Below, in pieces: positions 12,442-64,000 of a DNA stretch of 64,000 nucleotides. The DNA is taken from positions 1-64,000 of the forward strand of contig NZ_QHLX01000003.1 in the NCBI RefSeq assembly GCF_004135675.1, read 5' to 3'. This DNA is from Marinitoga lauensis (GTDB lineage Bacteria; Thermotogota; Thermotogae; Petrotogales; Petrotogaceae). A model generated the notes under the pieces. That model did not search any database and was not told the origin of the DNA. It saw nothing but the letters and a program-made list of their open reading frames with translations. Position 1 is the first letter of the stretch, and every line of letters begins with the position of its first letter. Position numbers and translations under genes: made by a program.

Positions 12442-13857
12442 TTATCCTATAGATGACTCAACTTCTAAATTAATTAGTTTATTTAATTCAAGTGCATATT
12501 CAAGAGGTAATTCTTTTACCAACGGTTCAATAAATCCTCTTACAATCATGTTTTTTGCATCTATTTCTGATAATCCTCTTGACATTAAATAATAAATTTG
12601 TTCTTCACTGATTCTTCCAATTTTTGCTTCATGACCAACGTCTGCATCATCGGTAAATACTTCTATTAAAGGAACAGTATCACTTTTTGATTTATTATCA
12701 AGCATTAAAGCATTACATTCAACAGAGGATTTTGCTCCTTTTGCGTTTTCTCCAATTTTTACCCAGCCTCTATAAAATGCCCATCCTCCACCAATACTAA
12801 TACTTCTTGCATTTACAATAGAGCTTGTATATGGAGCAAGATGAAAAACTTTTGAGCCGGTATCTAAATGTTGATTTGGTCCTGCATAGGTTAGAGTTAC
12901 AGAGCTGTTTTTAGCGCCTTTTCCTCTTAATATTGTCATTGGGTATAACATCGTTTTAAAACTACCTAAGGAACCGGATACCCATTCCATTGATCCATCT
13001 TCATCTACAATTGCTCTTTTGGTATTTAAATTGTATGTGTTTTTACTCCAGTTTTGAATTGTAGAATATTTCATTTTAGCACCCTTTTTTACATATATTT
13101 CCACCATGCCAGCATGCAAGTTAGTTACATTATAAAATGGTGCAGAACATCCTTCTATAAATTCAACTTCAGATCCTTCATCAGCGATTATTAATGTATG
13201 CTCTAATTGGCTCATACCAGGATTATTCATTCTAAAATATGCTTGAAGAGGTAAAGGTACTTTAACCCCTTTCGGGACATATAGAAATGAACCTCCACTC
13301 CACAATGCTCCATGAATAGCAGCATATCTATGATTATGTGAAGGGACAAGTTTCATAAAGTATTCTTTGACAAGATCAGGGTATTCTTTTACGGCTGTTT
13401 CCATATCAAGGAAAATAACTCCTAAATCATTTAATTCTTTTTGTATATGTTGATATACAACTTCTGAATCGTATTGGGCACCCACCCCGGCTAATGCTTT
13501 TCTTTCAGCTTCTGGAATACCGAGTTTTTCAAATGTATCTTTTATTTCTTCTGGAACGTCATCCCATGATGTGGATTTTTTTGCATCTGGTTTCATATAT
13601 GCTATTAATTTGCTTAAATCTAAATTTGTTATATCCACACCAAAATGTGGTTCATGATAATTTTCAAATATTTTAAAAGCCTGTAATCTATGTTCTAACA
13701 TCCATTTAGGCTCATTTTTAGCTTCTGATATTTCTCTTATAACCTTTTCATTTAATCCTGGAGGGGTTTTGTAAGCATATTTAGCTTCATTTCTAAAATC
13801 AAACTTTGATTGATTTATCATTAAATCTTCATAATTTATTTCATTAACATCTTTCAT
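12442..13857 (-). CDS. sufB: SUF scaffold subunit SufB
   Basis: 471-residue uninterrupted SufB, the main scaffold on which nascent Fe-S clusters are built. It shows the SufB N-terminal region (PPGLNEKVIREISEAKNEP), EGCSAPFYNVTNLHAG, the beta-helix core, SVECNALMLDNKSKSDTVP and DADVGHEAKIGRISEEQIYY near the end. The conserved cysteine in VECNALML is present. Its RBS (AAGGAG) lies inside the sufC 3' end, the stop of which is 2 nt away. Order sufC-sufB-sufD-sufS-sufU matches the Firmicutes-type SUF operon. Confidence 0.95.
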   Translation of the reverse strand: MKDVNEINYEDLMINQSKFDFRNEAKYAYKTPPGLNEKVIREISEAKNEPKWMLEHRLQAFKIFENYHEPHFGVDITNLDLSKLIAYMKPDAKKSTSWDDVPEEIKDTFEKLGIPEAERKALAGVGAQYDSEVVYQHIQKELNDLGVIFLDMETAVKEYPDLVKEYFMKLVPSHNHRYAAIHGALWSGGSFLYVPKGVKVPLPLQAYFRMNNPGMSQLEHTLIIADEGSEVEFIEGCSAPFYNVTNLHAGMVEIYVKKGAKMKYSTIQNWSKNTYNLNTKRAIVDEDGSMEWVSGSLGSFKTMLYPMTILRGKGAKNSSVTLTYAGPNQHLDTGSKVFHLAPYTSSIVNARSISIGGGWAFYRGWVKIGENAKGAKSSVECNALMLDNKSKSDTVPLIEVFTDDADVGHEAKIGRISEEQIYYLMSRGLSEIDAKNMIVRGFIEPLVKELPLEYALELNKLINLEVESSIG

Positions 13858-13858
13858 A

Positions 13859-14634
13859 TTACCACTCCTTTACAGTATTTGCATCTACATCAACATATTC
13901 GCTTAATACTGTATAACCTTTTTCTTCAATTTCTTCTGCTAATTTTGCATCACCAGTATATACTATTTTTCCGTCAACATAAACATGTACGAAATCTGGA
14001 TGTAAATATTTTAATATTCGTTGATAGTGAGTAATCATTAATATACTCATATCATCTGTTTTTAATTTATTTATAGCTTCAGCTACATCACGTAAAGCAT
14101 CAACATCAAGTCCGGAATCAATTTCATCTATAATAACTAATTTTGGTTGTAAAAAGAATAATTGTAATATTTCACTTTTTTCTTTTCTCCGCCAGAAAAT
14201 CCAGAATTTACATATCTATCTAAAAATTCCGGTTTAAGATTTATTTTTTCACATAGTTTTTTTAATCTTTTGTTTAATTCAATTGGTGAAACCTTTTCGT
14301 CTGGATGCATGTGCCTATATGCATTAATAAGGAATTGTCTCATTTTAACTCCTTCTATTTCTTGTGGATGCTGAAAGGTTAAGAATATTCCTTTTTTTGC
14401 TCTTTCGTTTGTGTCTAATTCGAGGATATTTTCACCTTCGAATAAAACTTCACCGTCGGTTACTTCAAACTTTGGTGATCCCATTATTACGTTTGATAAT
14501 GTTGATTTTCCTGAGCCATTTGGGCCCATTAATACATGTATTTCTCCCGGTTTTATATTCAAATTAACTCCTTTTAATATTTCTTTGTCATCTTCAATAA
14601 CTTTAGCTCTAAGATTCTTCACTTCTAACAACAT
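13859..14634 (-). CDS. sufC: SUF ATPase SufC
   Basis: Reconstructed 258-residue ABC-type ATPase of the SufBC2D complex. Walker A GPNGSGKSTL, signature SGGEKKKS, Walker B LVIIDEIDSGLD and the switch H in MITHYQRIL are visible. SufC hydrolyses ATP to remodel SufB-SufD during cluster assembly; it has no membrane partner. The frameshift near 14175, immediately after the signature motif, is repaired by one A in an A run. GGGAGG precedes the ATG at 14634. First gene of the operon, behind a strong promoter. Confidence 0.93.
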
Positions 14635-29907: not shown

Positions 29908-30693
29908 TTATCTCTTCAATGTTCCAACTGTTCTTAAGAAATCATCTGCTGTTTGTACAGCTCTTGCATTTAAGTCATAAGTTCTTTGAGCAACTATCAT
30001 ATTAACCATTTCTTTTACAACATCAACATTGGATTTTTCTAAAGATCCTTGCTCAATTGAACCATATCCATCTTGATTTGGAATACCTTCAGTTGCAACA
30101 CCAGATGCAGGAGTAGCTAAAAAAAGATTTCCTCCTATGGCTTTTAATCCTGCTGGATTTACGAATTTTACAAGTGTAATGTTACCAACATTCTGAATTG
30201 TACCATCTGGTAATTTTGCACTGATAATTCCATCAGGAGAAACATTAACACTTTCTGCATTTGTTGGTAAAGTAATGTTTGGAACAAACAATAATCCCTG
30301 AGAATTCACAAGTCTTCCATTGGCATCTACTTTAAATGAGCCATCTCTTGTGTATGCAATTCTTCCATCTTGTAACTGAATCTGAAAAAATCCATCTCCC
30401 ATAATAGCCATATCAAATGTTCCACCAGTTTGCTCAATATTTCCCTGTGTAAAAATTCTATTTGTAGCACCTATTTTCACACCATGTCCAACATATTCTC
30501 CAGTAGGTAACACGGAATTTTGAGCTGTTGGAGTTCCTGCTTCTTTTATTGGAGTATATAATAAGTCTTGAAACTCAATCCTTTGAGCTTTGTAACCTGT
30601 AGTGTCTACGTTAGATAAATTATTTGATATTGTGTCGAGTCTTCTTTGTTGTGCAATCATCCCTGTAGATGCTGAATAAAGAGATACTAACAT
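29908..30693 (-). CDS. flgG: Flagellar distal rod protein FlgG
   Basis: 261 residues, typical length. N-terminal rod motif LYSASTGMIAQQRRLDTISNNLSNVDTTGYK, split here as LYSASTGMIAQQRRLD and NNLSNVDTTGYKAQR; a central FGDGFFQ-type motif (IMGDGFFQIQL); C-terminal SNVDVVKEMVNMIVAQRTYD. Both termini form the coiled coils that build the rod. AAGGAGG precedes the ATG. Second gene after flgF, before mscS. Other flagellar genes are not in the window. Confidence 0.95.
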   Translation of the reverse strand: MLVSLYSASTGMIAQQRRLDTISNNLSNVDTTGYKAQRIEFQDLLYTPIKEAGTPTAQNSVLPTGEYVGHGVKIGATNRIFTQGNIEQTGGTFDMAIMGDGFFQIQLQDGRIAYTRDGSFKVDANGRLVNSQGLLFVPNITLPTNAESVNVSPDGIISAKLPDGTIQNVGNITLVKFVNPAGLKAIGGNLFLATPASGVATEGIPNQDGYGSIEQGSLEKSNVDVVKEMVNMIVAQRTYDLNARAVQTADDFLRTVGTLKR

Positions 30694-30723
30694 ATTCTTT
30701 TCCTCCTTGAAATTATATTATTT

Positions 30724-31458
30724 TTATATTCTTTGAGCACTTTCTATAATTTTTCCGGTCATTGTATCCTGAGTTTGTACGGATTTTTCTAATATACTAA
30801 AAGCTCTATTGGCATTTATTAAATTTATCATTTCTTTTAATGTGTTAACGTTTGATTTTTCTATGCTACCCTGTATTACTTTATAGTTACTTGATATAGT
30901 TTCATTTCCAGTAAAAAGGTTAATACCGAATTTGGAAGGGTTTTTAAGGTTTACTATTGAAATTTTTTGTCCTGTAGATTGAGTACCATTATAGATAGTT
31001 CCTGATTCATCAACGGTAAAATTTTCCGGTACCTGAATATGTTTATTATTCGAATCCAGAACATAATCTCCGTCTGAGGTAATCAAAAAACCATCTTGAT
31101 TTCTTTTGAATTCACCGTTTCGAGAATAATAAATTTCCCCATTTTTTTCAATTTTAAAAAAACCATCACCAAAAATGGAAAAATCTGTTGGATTATTTGT
31201 TTTTACAATTTGTCCCTGTGAAATTATGGGTTTTGTTTCGTCGGCGACTAAAGCTGTTTCCATATAACCAACATGTTTTCCTTTTTTTATGTCTACTGAA
31301 TCATAGTTTCTAAATTCTTTCTTTAAATATGCTTTAAAGGTTATCTCATCTTTTTTATATCCTGTTGTATCAGCATTTGCAAGATTATTTGAAATTGTAT
31401 CTAATTGTGCCATATTTGCAAGCATTCCCATAGTGGAAATATAAAGCCCTCTATTCAT
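30724..31458 (-). CDS. flgF: Flagellar basal-body rod protein, FlgF-like
   Basis: 244 residues. N-terminal NRGLYISTMGMLANMAQLD and NNLANADTTGYK, central FGDGFFKIEKNGEIYYSRNG and C-terminal KSNVNTLKEMINLINANRAF show the flgF/flgG rod family. The order before flgG and lower similarity favour FlgF (proximal rod) or a second FlgG. The start is close to the palindromic repeat island at 31502, so the promoter must lie in the 40 bp between or inside the repeat. Confidence 0.85.
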   Translation of the reverse strand: MNRGLYISTMGMLANMAQLDTISNNLANADTTGYKKDEITFKAYLKKEFRNYDSVDIKKGKHVGYMETALVADETKPIISQGQIVKTNNPTDFSIFGDGFFKIEKNGEIYYSRNGEFKRNQDGFLITSDGDYVLDSNNKHIQVPENFTVDESGTIYNGTQSTGQKISIVNLKNPSKFGINLFTGNETISSNYKVIQGSIEKSNVNTLKEMINLINANRAFSILEKSVQTQDTMTGKIIESAQRI

Positions 31459-31501: not shown

Positions 31502-31767
31502 AAAAATAAATATATCCTAAACATTTCGCTTCGCGAAAGGTTTAAGGTTATTTTTTTATTTTATAATAAAGATATTTATCCTAAACATTTCGCTTCGCGA
31601 AAGGTTTAAGGTTATTTTTTTATTTTATAATAAAAATATTTATCCTAAACATTTCGCTCCGCGAAAGGTTTAAGGTTATTTTTTTTATTTTATAATAAAA
31701 ATATTTATCCTAAAATCCTTCACGAAGTGAAGAGTTTTAGAAATAAAATATTATTAAATAAAAAACA
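31502..31767. repeat. Left 266-bp target duplication made of 64-bp hairpin repeats
   Basis: Direct repeat of 33694-33959 with a single mismatch that I can see (CGCTTCGCGAAA here, CGCTTCACGAAA there). It holds units beginning CCTAAA at 31516, 31580, 31644 and 31709, a 64-64-65 bp period. Each of the first three has an imperfect stem around TTTCGCTTCGCGAAA or TTTCGCTCCGCGAAA, then GGTTTAAGGTTATTTTTTT; the fourth has CTTCACGAAGTGAAG. It abuts the left end of the insertion sequence exactly. Confidence 0.88.
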
Positions 31768-33693
31768 CCTGCCTTTGACAGCAATTTGGCGATTTTAAGG
31801 GAAATGGAACGGTAGAATGCGGGTTTGAGGCGTGTATTTTTCAGGAAGTCGAAAAATTGTGTGGCTAACTTTTGTTACAGAGAATTAACTATAATTAGTA
31901 ATATATTAGTCCTTTTGGTGGTATAATATATATGACAACCACTGAAAGGAGATGTTTTAAAATGTATCCTAAAATATCAAAAGTGAAAGGAAAAAGATAT
32001 TTAAGGATAATGGAAAGCAAAAGAGAAAATGGAAAAGTGAAACAGCATACAGTAATAAATTTTGGAAATATAGATAAGTATAGTAAAAAAGATATAACAA
32101 AACTTGTAGATAGTCTTTTTAAAATATTTGAAATAGATGAATATGAAAAAATAGAAGATGATTTAATGGAAGAAATAGCAAGAAGAAATTACGGAGCCAA
32201 AGTAATAGTAAATAAGATATTTGAAAGATATGAGATGAAAAGATATTTTGAAAGACTGGATAAAGAAATAAAATACAATGCAGAAGAAATGTTAAAAATA
32301 ATGGTGATGAATAGAATAGTAGAACCGAAGAGTAAATTGGGAATATTTAATAATTTAGAGTATTTTGGATATAACAAAGTGGAAGTTAAAAAAGAAAAAG
32401 ACCTGGAAGAAAAAGATGTAATGTTGCACTGGTTATACAGAACATTGGATATATTAGCAGATAATAAAGAGTCGATAGAAAAACATATGTATAATCAAAG
32501 GATAAGTTTGTTTAATACAACGGTAGATTTAGTATTTTACGATGTAACAACATTAGCGTTTGAAACACAACAAACAAATGAAATATTACAAATGGGATAT
32601 TCAAAAGATAAGAAATTCAATGAGTCGCAAGTAGTATTAGGAATGTCAATAGATCAAGATAGAATGCCAGTTAGTTTTGATATATATGCAGGAAATACAT
32701 TCGAAGGGCATACATTCAAAGATTCAATAGAAAAAATGAAAAAAGAATATCAATTAGGAAAAGTAATAGTAGTAGCAGATAGAGGAATGATGAGTAAAAA
32801 AATATAGAAGTAGTAGAAAATTCTAATTATGAATTCATAGTAGGAAAATCAATAAAACAAATAAAAAAAGTAAATATATTTGAAGGAGAATTCATAGAAC
32901 TAGCAAAAGGAATAAAATATAGAGAAGTAGAATATGAAAATAAAAGATTACTCATAATATATTCAGAAGAAAGAGCCAAAAAAGACAGAGCAGATAGACT
33001 ACGATTAATAGAAAAAGCGAAAAAAATGTTAGAAGAAGGAAATATAGATTCCAAAAGTAAAAGAGGAGCGAAAAAATATTTAAAAGAACAGAACAAACAA
33101 AATTATATACTGGACATAGAAAAAATAGAAAATGATGAAAAATACGATGGATACTATGGAATAATAACAAACACAAAACTATCGCCAAAAGAAATATTAG
33201 AACAATATCATACATTATGGAAAGTAGAAGAAACATTTAGAACATTAAAAATTATCTTGAAACAAGACCGGTATTTCATTGGACACCGAAAAGAATAAAA
33301 GGACATATTGTAATGAGTTTCATATCTTACATAATTCAAAGAACATTAGAATTAGAACTGGAAAAAATAATATTGAATACTCTCATGAAAAAATAAGAGA
33401 AGCTATAAAAAAAATGGAATACTCTGAAATAAGATTAAAAGACAAATTATTTGCATTAAGAGCCAATTTAAACGATTTTCAAAAAGCCATATTAAAAACA
33501 TTAAAAATAGAAAAACCGAAAAAATGATGGAATTAGATGAATTTAAAAAAATAATCTCCTAAAACACGCATGAAAAGCCAAAAAGGAGGAGGTGTGTGGC
33601 TAATTTCTCTTTTTATAAAAAGTTAACAATAGCTATTTTTTGAATAATTCTACTTTTTAGAATTTTGTTGATAATAATAGTGTCAAACTCAGG
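31768..33693 (+). mobile_element. IS1634-family insertion sequence
   Basis: 1926-bp element bounded by imperfect inverted ends: CCTGCCTTTGACA on the left and, read inward from the right, CCTGAGTTTGACA (11 of 13 identical). It encodes one DDE transposase. It is flanked by a 266-bp direct repeat. IS1634 (Mycoplasma mycoides) and the related IS1549 are known for very long, variable target duplications, and IS1634 is of similar length. The near-identity of the flanks suggests a recent insertion. An 11-bp direct repeat, TGTGTGGCTAA, also occurs in both terminal non-coding regions (31858, 33593). Confidence 0.88.
31962..33527 (+). CDS. IS1634-family transposase (DDE, IS4 superfamily)
   Basis: About 522 residues after repair. 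Catalytic regions: first Asp in VFYDVTTLAFE (about residue 194), second Asp in VVADRGMMSK (about 272), and the Y-R-E-K-like signature YHTLWKVEETFRTLK with the Glu. The N-terminal part (KVKGKRYLRIMESKRENGK) matches IS1634-type enzymes. Three frame breaks near 32800, 33250 and 33370 are each repaired by one A. Because the rest of the window has the same error type, the transposase may be intact and active. AAGGAG favours the start at 31962 over 31932. A TATAAT lies at 31922. Confidence 0.88.
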
Positions 33694-33959
33694 AAAAATA
33701 AATATATCCTAAACATTTCGCTTCGCGAAAGGTTTAAGGTTATTTTTTTATTTTATAATAAAGATATTTATCCTAAACATTTCGCTTCACGAAAGGTTTA
33801 AGGTTATTTTTTTATTTTATAATAAAAATATTTATCCTAAACATTTCGCTCCGCGAAAGGTTTAAGGTTATTTTTTTTATTTTATAATAAAAATATTTAT
33901 CCTAAAATCCTTCACGAAGTGAAGAGTTTTAGAAATAAAATATTATTAAATAAAAAACA
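33694..33959. repeat. Right 266-bp target duplication made of 64-bp hairpin repeats
   Basis: Second copy of 31502-31767; units begin at 33708, 33772, 33836 and 33901. The second unit has CGCTTCACGAAA, the only difference from the left copy that I found. It begins directly after the insertion sequence's terminal CAGG and continues without break into further palindromes, so this side is presumably the original continuation of the array. Confidence 0.88.
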
Positions 33960-34318
33960 CTTCACTTCGTGAAGTGTTTATGGAAAATGTTTTAATAATA
34001 AAAATTATTAGTTCTTTCGAGAAGTGAAGAATTATTATGAAAAATAAAAAATTTTTCAACCCTTCACGAAGTGAAGAGTATTTGTAAAACAAAAAGCTTC
34101 CGCGAAGCGGAAGGTTTAAGTTTATTTTTTTTATTTTATAATAAAGATATTTATCCTAAACATTTCGCTTCGCGAAAGGTTTAAGTTTATTTTTTTATTT
34201 TATAATAAAAACATTCATCCTAAAATCCTTCACGAAGTGAAGAGTTTTAGAAAGAAGTGAAGTGTTTAGAGAAAATGTTTAATAATAAAAATTATTAGAT
34301 CTTTCACGAAGCGAATGT
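33960..34318. repeat. Palindromic repeat cluster, continuation of the array
   Basis: No gene seen. Short hairpins of the same design recur: CTTCACTTCGTGAAG (about 33962), CTTCACGAAGTGAAG (about 34062 and 34228), CTTCCGCGAAGCGGAAG (about 34098) and TTTCGCTTCGCGAAA (about 34163). The 64-bp unit start CCTAAA occurs at 34155 and 34219. A further A/T stem around AATAATAAAAATTATT appears twice (33993 and about 34280). The cluster ends against the stop codon of the membrane-protein gene. Terminator-like T-tracts follow several stems. Confidence 0.8.
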
Positions 34319-63848: not shown

Positions 63849-64000
63849 GTAGACAAACTTATCTACTTATAAAGTATTTAAAAATAATATTCGCTCAGGC
63901 GGTGAAAATTCTTAAACTCTTCGCTTCGCGAAGGGTTTTAGGAAAAATATTTTTATTATAAAATAAAAAAACAACCTTAAACCTTTCGCTCCGCGAAATG
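63849..64000. repeat. Palindromic repeats at the right edge
   Basis: No gene seen. 63849-63908 repeats the module at 58877-58936, including AATATTCGCTCAGGCGGTGAA. It is followed by CTTCGCTTCGCGAAG (about 63920) and, in inverted orientation, ACAACCTTAAACCTTTCGCT with GCGAAATG at the edge, the reverse complement of the 64-bp unit of the island at 31502-34320. The array continues beyond the window. Confidence 0.7.

Follow-up and report, generated by a model that had tools for sequence, protein, structure and literature searches.

The element at the window locus and its family

In the window, i.e. the whole stretch of 64,000 nucleotides analysed here, an insertion sequence of 1926 bp (denoted type E1) occupies positions 31768–33693 of the plus strand, with boundaries common to its copies. 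Its left terminal inverted repeat CCTGCCTTTGACA is located at 31768–31780 and the right one (CCTGAGTTTGACA on the minus strand) at 33681–33693, both read directly and common to the copies, and the inverted-ended element named in a preliminary description of this DNA is present with exactly these ends. The left flank, an intergenic segment at 31502–31767, and the right flank at 33694–33959 match at 265 of 266 positions in an ungapped comparison and adjoin the element ends exactly, just as had been described.

Three tandem units of a dispersed palindromic repeat of about 64 bp lie inside the left flank. Such palindrome-bearing repeats (core TTTCGCTTCGCGAAA) are intergenic and are found at 31502–31713, 33694–33905, 34107–34256 and 63909–64000; in this genome the 266-bp stretch gave 69 matches, whether partial or full, while the full 266 bp occur, in a search of the same genome, only at the window locus and there two times. 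Two minus-strand genes beside the insertion (29908–31458) presumably encode flagellar hook/rod proteins, judging from their motifs.

The transposase gene (31932–33562, plus strand) is split into several open frames, its frame being broken in the assembly by single-base losses within A/T homopolymer runs as well as by substitutions. Single-base losses in A/T runs are a pattern typical of long-read errors. Other copies in this genome contain intact frames of 541–554 amino acids, with 544 residues in intact copies of the element (e.g. L006).

The IS1634-family model NF033559 is matched by two of the three window transposase frames scanned and scores 181 bits (E 3.3e-53) with the first frame of the window at a cut-off of 100, which bears out the family identity proposed earlier. 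Intact E1 copies reach 377 bits, and the best match of the genome (E 2.5e-115) is a copy of a second type, E2. Asp204, Asp283 and Glu433 (D204, D283, E433), which we take to be the catalytic residues, are invariant in transposase alignment A2, and a characteristic spacing from this glutamate to the lysine of the YREK motif is likewise assumed. In the intact E1 protein Y426 and K440 are present and a leucine takes the place of the arginine, leaving an incomplete YREK motif. A search of solved structures returned two matches only, both to thioredoxin reductase with an E-value of 0.065, which were taken as chance.

According to a 2008 survey (PMC2266710), an incomplete YREK lacking the arginine is a mark of the IS1634 family, whose members measure 1500–2000 bp, have ends of the type C-----YT and are tabulated with direct repeats of 5–6 bp, IS1634 and IS1549 being listed with 8–514 bp. 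E1 fits the family in size (1926 bp) and ends (CCTGCCTT / CCTGAGTT). The direct repeats of 5–6 bp, which are typical of the family but do not define it, are not found with E1 and E2, where they measure 28–1301 bp at 35 of 37 loci. In summary, the data support the assignment of the window element to the IS1634 family and its possession of a true long target-site duplication.

Copies and direct repeats across the genome

The stretches of this genome that were fetched and read contain 51 pieces of the two related types, with E1 at 30 loci (98–100% identity, window locus included). E2 is about 92% like E1 over positions 420–1926 and differs at its ends. The transposase core is nearly identical in both types, and the N-terminal parts, the C-terminal parts and the ends differ, as if by gene conversion. 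Eight pieces, either fragmentary or truncated by a contig end, were set aside. Of the 43 complete or near-complete elements left, 37 are bordered by direct repeats abutting their ends. Seven of the 43 (four on contig C6, two on C15, one on C11) represent a single locus present in redundant contigs, which reduces the total to 37 distinct loci; direct repeats of 28–1301 bp (median 207 bp) are found at 35 of them. The preliminary description had proposed aligning the flanks of other copies, and this alignment yields long direct repeats of variable length throughout these 35 loci, so that the behaviour claimed for a member of the Thermotogota holds at the window locus and genome-wide.

The individual lengths are 28, 43, 74, 91, 95, 100, 101, 103, 103, 109, 110, 117, 127, 166, 167, 198, 204, 207, 212, 215, 266, 277, 289, 291, 292, 310, 314, ~337, 398, 415, 420, 433, 453, ~550 and 1301 bp, of which those of at least nine pairs are good to a few bases because the pairs differ by small insertions or deletions. 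The length differs from copy to copy, and two values (~550 and 1301 bp) exceed the published 514 bp. Only three of the 35 are shorter than 90 bp. With the 1301-bp value left out, the distribution is described by a gamma function of shape 2.6 (KS p 0.70), whereas an exponential does not fit (p 0.027). Neither a 10.5 nor an 11 bp helical period is detectable in the 35 lengths; an apparent period of about 107 bp remained below the 95% null level and was discarded. Element orientation relative to local GC skew is unbiased (21 to 16 for the 37 loci).

No duplication is observed at C11:342737 and C2:35527. The latter element is situated at the border of a stretch of about 1.5 kb that has many copies (~77–92% alike) across the genus; such stretches occur at ~12540–14070 and 14920–16440 of L042 and also in six further genomes from the genus (G001–G006). 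At two loci an E2 element has duplicated part of an E1 copy, namely ~78 of 415 bp at C7:317051 and ~550 bp at C11:382646.

Empty sites were looked for at 15 loci in G001–G006, and among the matches listed single-copy empty sites were found for eight of them. These are C7:246052 (G002, with a 27-bp overlap compared to the 28-bp repeat), C11:277153 (all six relatives), C10:4298 (five relatives), C7:4716 (G001 and G004), C12:311771 (G001 and G005), C7:449671 (G002) and, judged by spacing, C11:104684 (G002, 252 versus 253 expected) and C9:119880 (110 in G002 and 111 in G006 versus 112, with a longer spacer in the other four relatives). Furthermore, the same assembly includes an empty allele of C10, namely contig C1, which is 99.2% identical and has a single copy of the 74-bp repeat. 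Among the same matches, no clear empty site was seen at the window locus, C7:249313, C7:256973, C15, C16:54165, C17:6591 and C7:319302. In G001 the element is absent from the window locus and the intergenic stretch is shorter (297 bp). The empty site expected in relatives was obtained at the eight other loci and not, in clean form, at the window locus itself.

The comparison with relatives shows that at these eight loci the duplicated segment was single-copy before insertion. Because of these sites and of the empty allele on C1, the long repeats are almost certainly target-site duplications made at insertion. Repeats that were pre-existing, part of the element, or derived from later tandem duplication or misassembly are highly improbable: the window repeat does hold dispersed 64-bp units, and some contigs of the assembly are redundant and one (C6) is palindromic, but flanks vary among copies, the repeat is single at empty sites, both repeat borders abut the element ends and mostly obey the joint rule described below, and long repeats of this kind are also seen in sequences that are complete, namely an Emticicia chromosome and plasmid records. 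That the flanks travel with the element is rejected, as the 266 bp occur only at the window locus and the other copies in this genome are flanked differently, and no relative has two repeat copies without an element among the matches listed. As to the redundancy, C1 and C10 are empty and filled alleles, C8 overlaps C7 by 6.4 kb at 99.3%, C15 is a further redundant contig, and C6 repeats itself in inverted orientation around tandem elements. The mostly identical duplications and the allele found with and without the element fit recent activity, in agreement with the earlier view of a recent, possibly active element.

Joint preference and distribution of long duplications

The joints were analysed at 33 of the 35 loci (C13:21728 and C11:382646, for which repeats were only detected at a later stage, were left out). 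A is the first base within the duplication at 29 of 33 right ends and 26 of 33 left ends against a background of 36%, and AA, AG or TG is found at 29 of 33 joints at either end, the background in this genome being 25%. Outside the duplication no such base preference is apparent by eye at the same loci. The same dinucleotides occur at 24 of 30 ends of 15 further long events in other organisms (background 23%) and at 19 of 24 ends of 12 elements (including L171) whose ends are of the same kind but which lack a duplication, compared to only 3 of 30 ends of 15 short-duplication or presumed short insertions, nine of which are copies of one G014 element. Both element ends, joined to opposite strands, thus have one and the same local preference, and each would seem to choose its site for itself under a common rule. 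The stronger A at the right end (p 0.07 in this genome, 0.37 elsewhere, 0.047 pooled) is weak; as it is what would be expected if one end always came first, its weak expression counts against an ordered model.

Scans of genome contigs retrieved no relative with alignment A1 and 67 loci with alignment A2, of which nine have long repeats and many have too little flank to judge. Within the phylum, long repeats of the same family are present in G049 (104–105 bp) and G046 (~155 bp), and short ones in G014 (6–7 bp in eight of nine copies) and G031 (5 bp, 4 bp and none, at one copy each), the short duplications having been read from comparison of copies and ends. A transposase of G039, a genome of the same order, is shared without any difference by a Kosmotogaceae MAG, which places the host in Thermotogota. 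More distant long repeats are those of Desulfallas (439 bp), three Bacteroidota MAGs (54, 104 and 49 bp) and a complete Emticicia chromosome, where all five full copies have them (371, 482, 44, 120 and ~127 bp). Eight records of a plasmid collection were read, giving four long, two short and two without a call. Long repeats are found in Persicobacter pPP7 (33 bp) and pPP1 (406 bp), Aliarcobacter pCNAC48 (~680 bp) and an IS1634-family element of Mycoplasmopsis gallopavonis (43 bp), and short ones of 6 bp in Cupriavidus pMTS3 and Alicyclobacillus SO9 p1. A search of phage records gave three distant matches.

Two copies in G001, separated by 7 kb, have no repeats of their own, whereas an identical 166-bp sequence is found in both outer flanks. 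On these flanks the pair is read as a composite element that was mobilised as a whole and produced one long duplication (L167/L168, G001:C1:1743316–1754448), with two inverted bounding copies and the 166-bp duplication outside. It encloses other transposase genes and a pair of genes that, by their motifs, presumably encode an ABC-2-type permease and an ATPase.

In a tree of 55 transposases, 14 rows with long duplications (two of them from G001, called long from the single 166-bp repeat of the composite) are separated by a 100/100 branch from seven rows with short ones (4–7 bp); 34 rows are unlabelled, three labelled rows stand on long branches, and the tree omits 18 rows that an earlier one had contained. 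That earlier tree (65 rows, 14 long and five short) agrees, with a branch of 100/99. The long rows belong to five phyla, namely Thermotogota, Bacillota, Bacteroidota, Campylobacterota and Mycoplasmatota. The third base of the ends is C in short-duplication elements and T in long ones, C also being found in a few long-side rows without a duplication call (L184, L190, L224). Eleven elements with the same kind of ends and with flanks longer than 600 bp on either side are free of duplications, long or short; nine of them fall on the long side of the 65-row tree (L176 and L193 are not in it), and eight are in MAGs by title. Collectively, the tree supports long duplications as the mark of a subgroup of the IS1634 family found in several phyla. 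Because G014 and G031 of the same phylum make short duplications and distant phyla make long ones, duplication length seems to depend more on the element than on the host.

Insertion mechanism and relation to known elements

Two joints on opposite strands that mostly obey one rule, lie at very variable distances and leave a duplication at 35 of 37 loci are what the alignments show. We consider it probable that E1 is a recently active DDE element from the long-variable-duplication subgroup of the IS1634 family. Insertion by sequential strand transfers with displacement synthesis, in the order of steps given here, is put forward tentatively, at somewhat less than even odds, from the sequence patterns. 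The transposase would join one 3' end to one target strand, and the exposed target 3'-OH would be extended with strand displacement. The second end would then be joined to the other strand at a point tens to hundreds of bases ahead, within DNA that this synthesis has opened or copied, and filling of the two single-stranded arms from the free 3' ends would leave the segment in between on either side of the element. Duplications and not deletions would arise because the synthesis runs in one direction only, and strand-displacement synthesis between the transfers would account for both the one-way polarity and the lack of phasing. Counted against this proposal are the two loci C11:342737 and C2:35527 and the eleven other elements without duplication, as well as the absence of a GC-skew bias.

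Alternatively, both ends could strike an intact duplex at once on a bent target, fill-in producing the duplication and the opposite geometry leaving 3' flaps that are lost. The common site rule at both ends would suit such an attack, as would the scarcity of lengths below 90 bp and the gamma-shaped distribution described above, but a stiff loop would tend to impose a period of 10.5 or 11 bp that is not observed, and the near-universal duplications need an added filter against deletions; we regard this as unlikely. Still less likely is an insertion at replication forks or other host single-stranded regions with a duplication length reflecting the gap. Variable, unphased lengths agree with it, whereas the orientation of the elements is unbiased with respect to GC skew, and other genera of the phylum (G014, G031) make 4–7 bp while distant phyla make long duplications. 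These two are the main rivals of sequential transfer with displacement synthesis.

Long variable duplications are already known for IS1634 of Mycoplasma mycoides and IS1549 of Mycobacterium smegmatis, which like E1 belong to the IS1634 family and have repeats of 8–514 bp according to PMC2266710, which states that no mechanistic model had been proposed for them. The hosts differ, and repeats of 28–1301 bp are seen here at 35 loci of one genome, together with empty sites and a joint rule. The Mycoplasmopsis protein is positioned on the long-duplication side on a long branch; the IS1634 and IS1549 proteins are not in the tree. Copy number and rearrangements of IS1634 are treated in PMC3053259. 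Short-duplication members of the family (ISGka5, 6 bp in PMC8024623; G014; G031; Cupriavidus pMTS3; Alicyclobacillus SO9 p1) share the transposase family with E1 and, in G031 and Alicyclobacillus SO9, resembling ends (TTTGACA), those of G014 (CCCACTTTCCGCA) and Cupriavidus (TTCGACA) being less similar. They differ from E1 in duplications of 4–7 bp, in the 3 of 30 ends fitting AA/AG/TG among those analysed here and in their place across the 100/100 branch (ISGka5 is not in the tree). IS10 and IS50 of the IS4 family proper are DDE transposases of the same superfamily, but with duplications of 7–13 bp and a full YREK (PMC2266710). In the literature search, outside of which most subscription papers lay, nothing was found on long duplications in Thermotogota, on such duplications as a subgroup property or on the joint rule.

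It is conceivable, though less likely than not, that long duplications are the inherited mark of one ancient IS1634-family subgroup spread over at least five phyla, whose strand transfers are uncoupled, with strand-displacement synthesis between them; such integration would differ from the concerted attack at a fixed stagger made by other DDE transposases. Together with long- and short-duplication relatives, the 35 loci of this genome offer a testable comparison as to which part of the transposase uncouples the strand transfers, and they supply numerous natural cases from which a still unsolved mechanism of insertion could be worked out. Moreover, long duplications may allow recombination to remove the element precisely or to amplify it in tandem.
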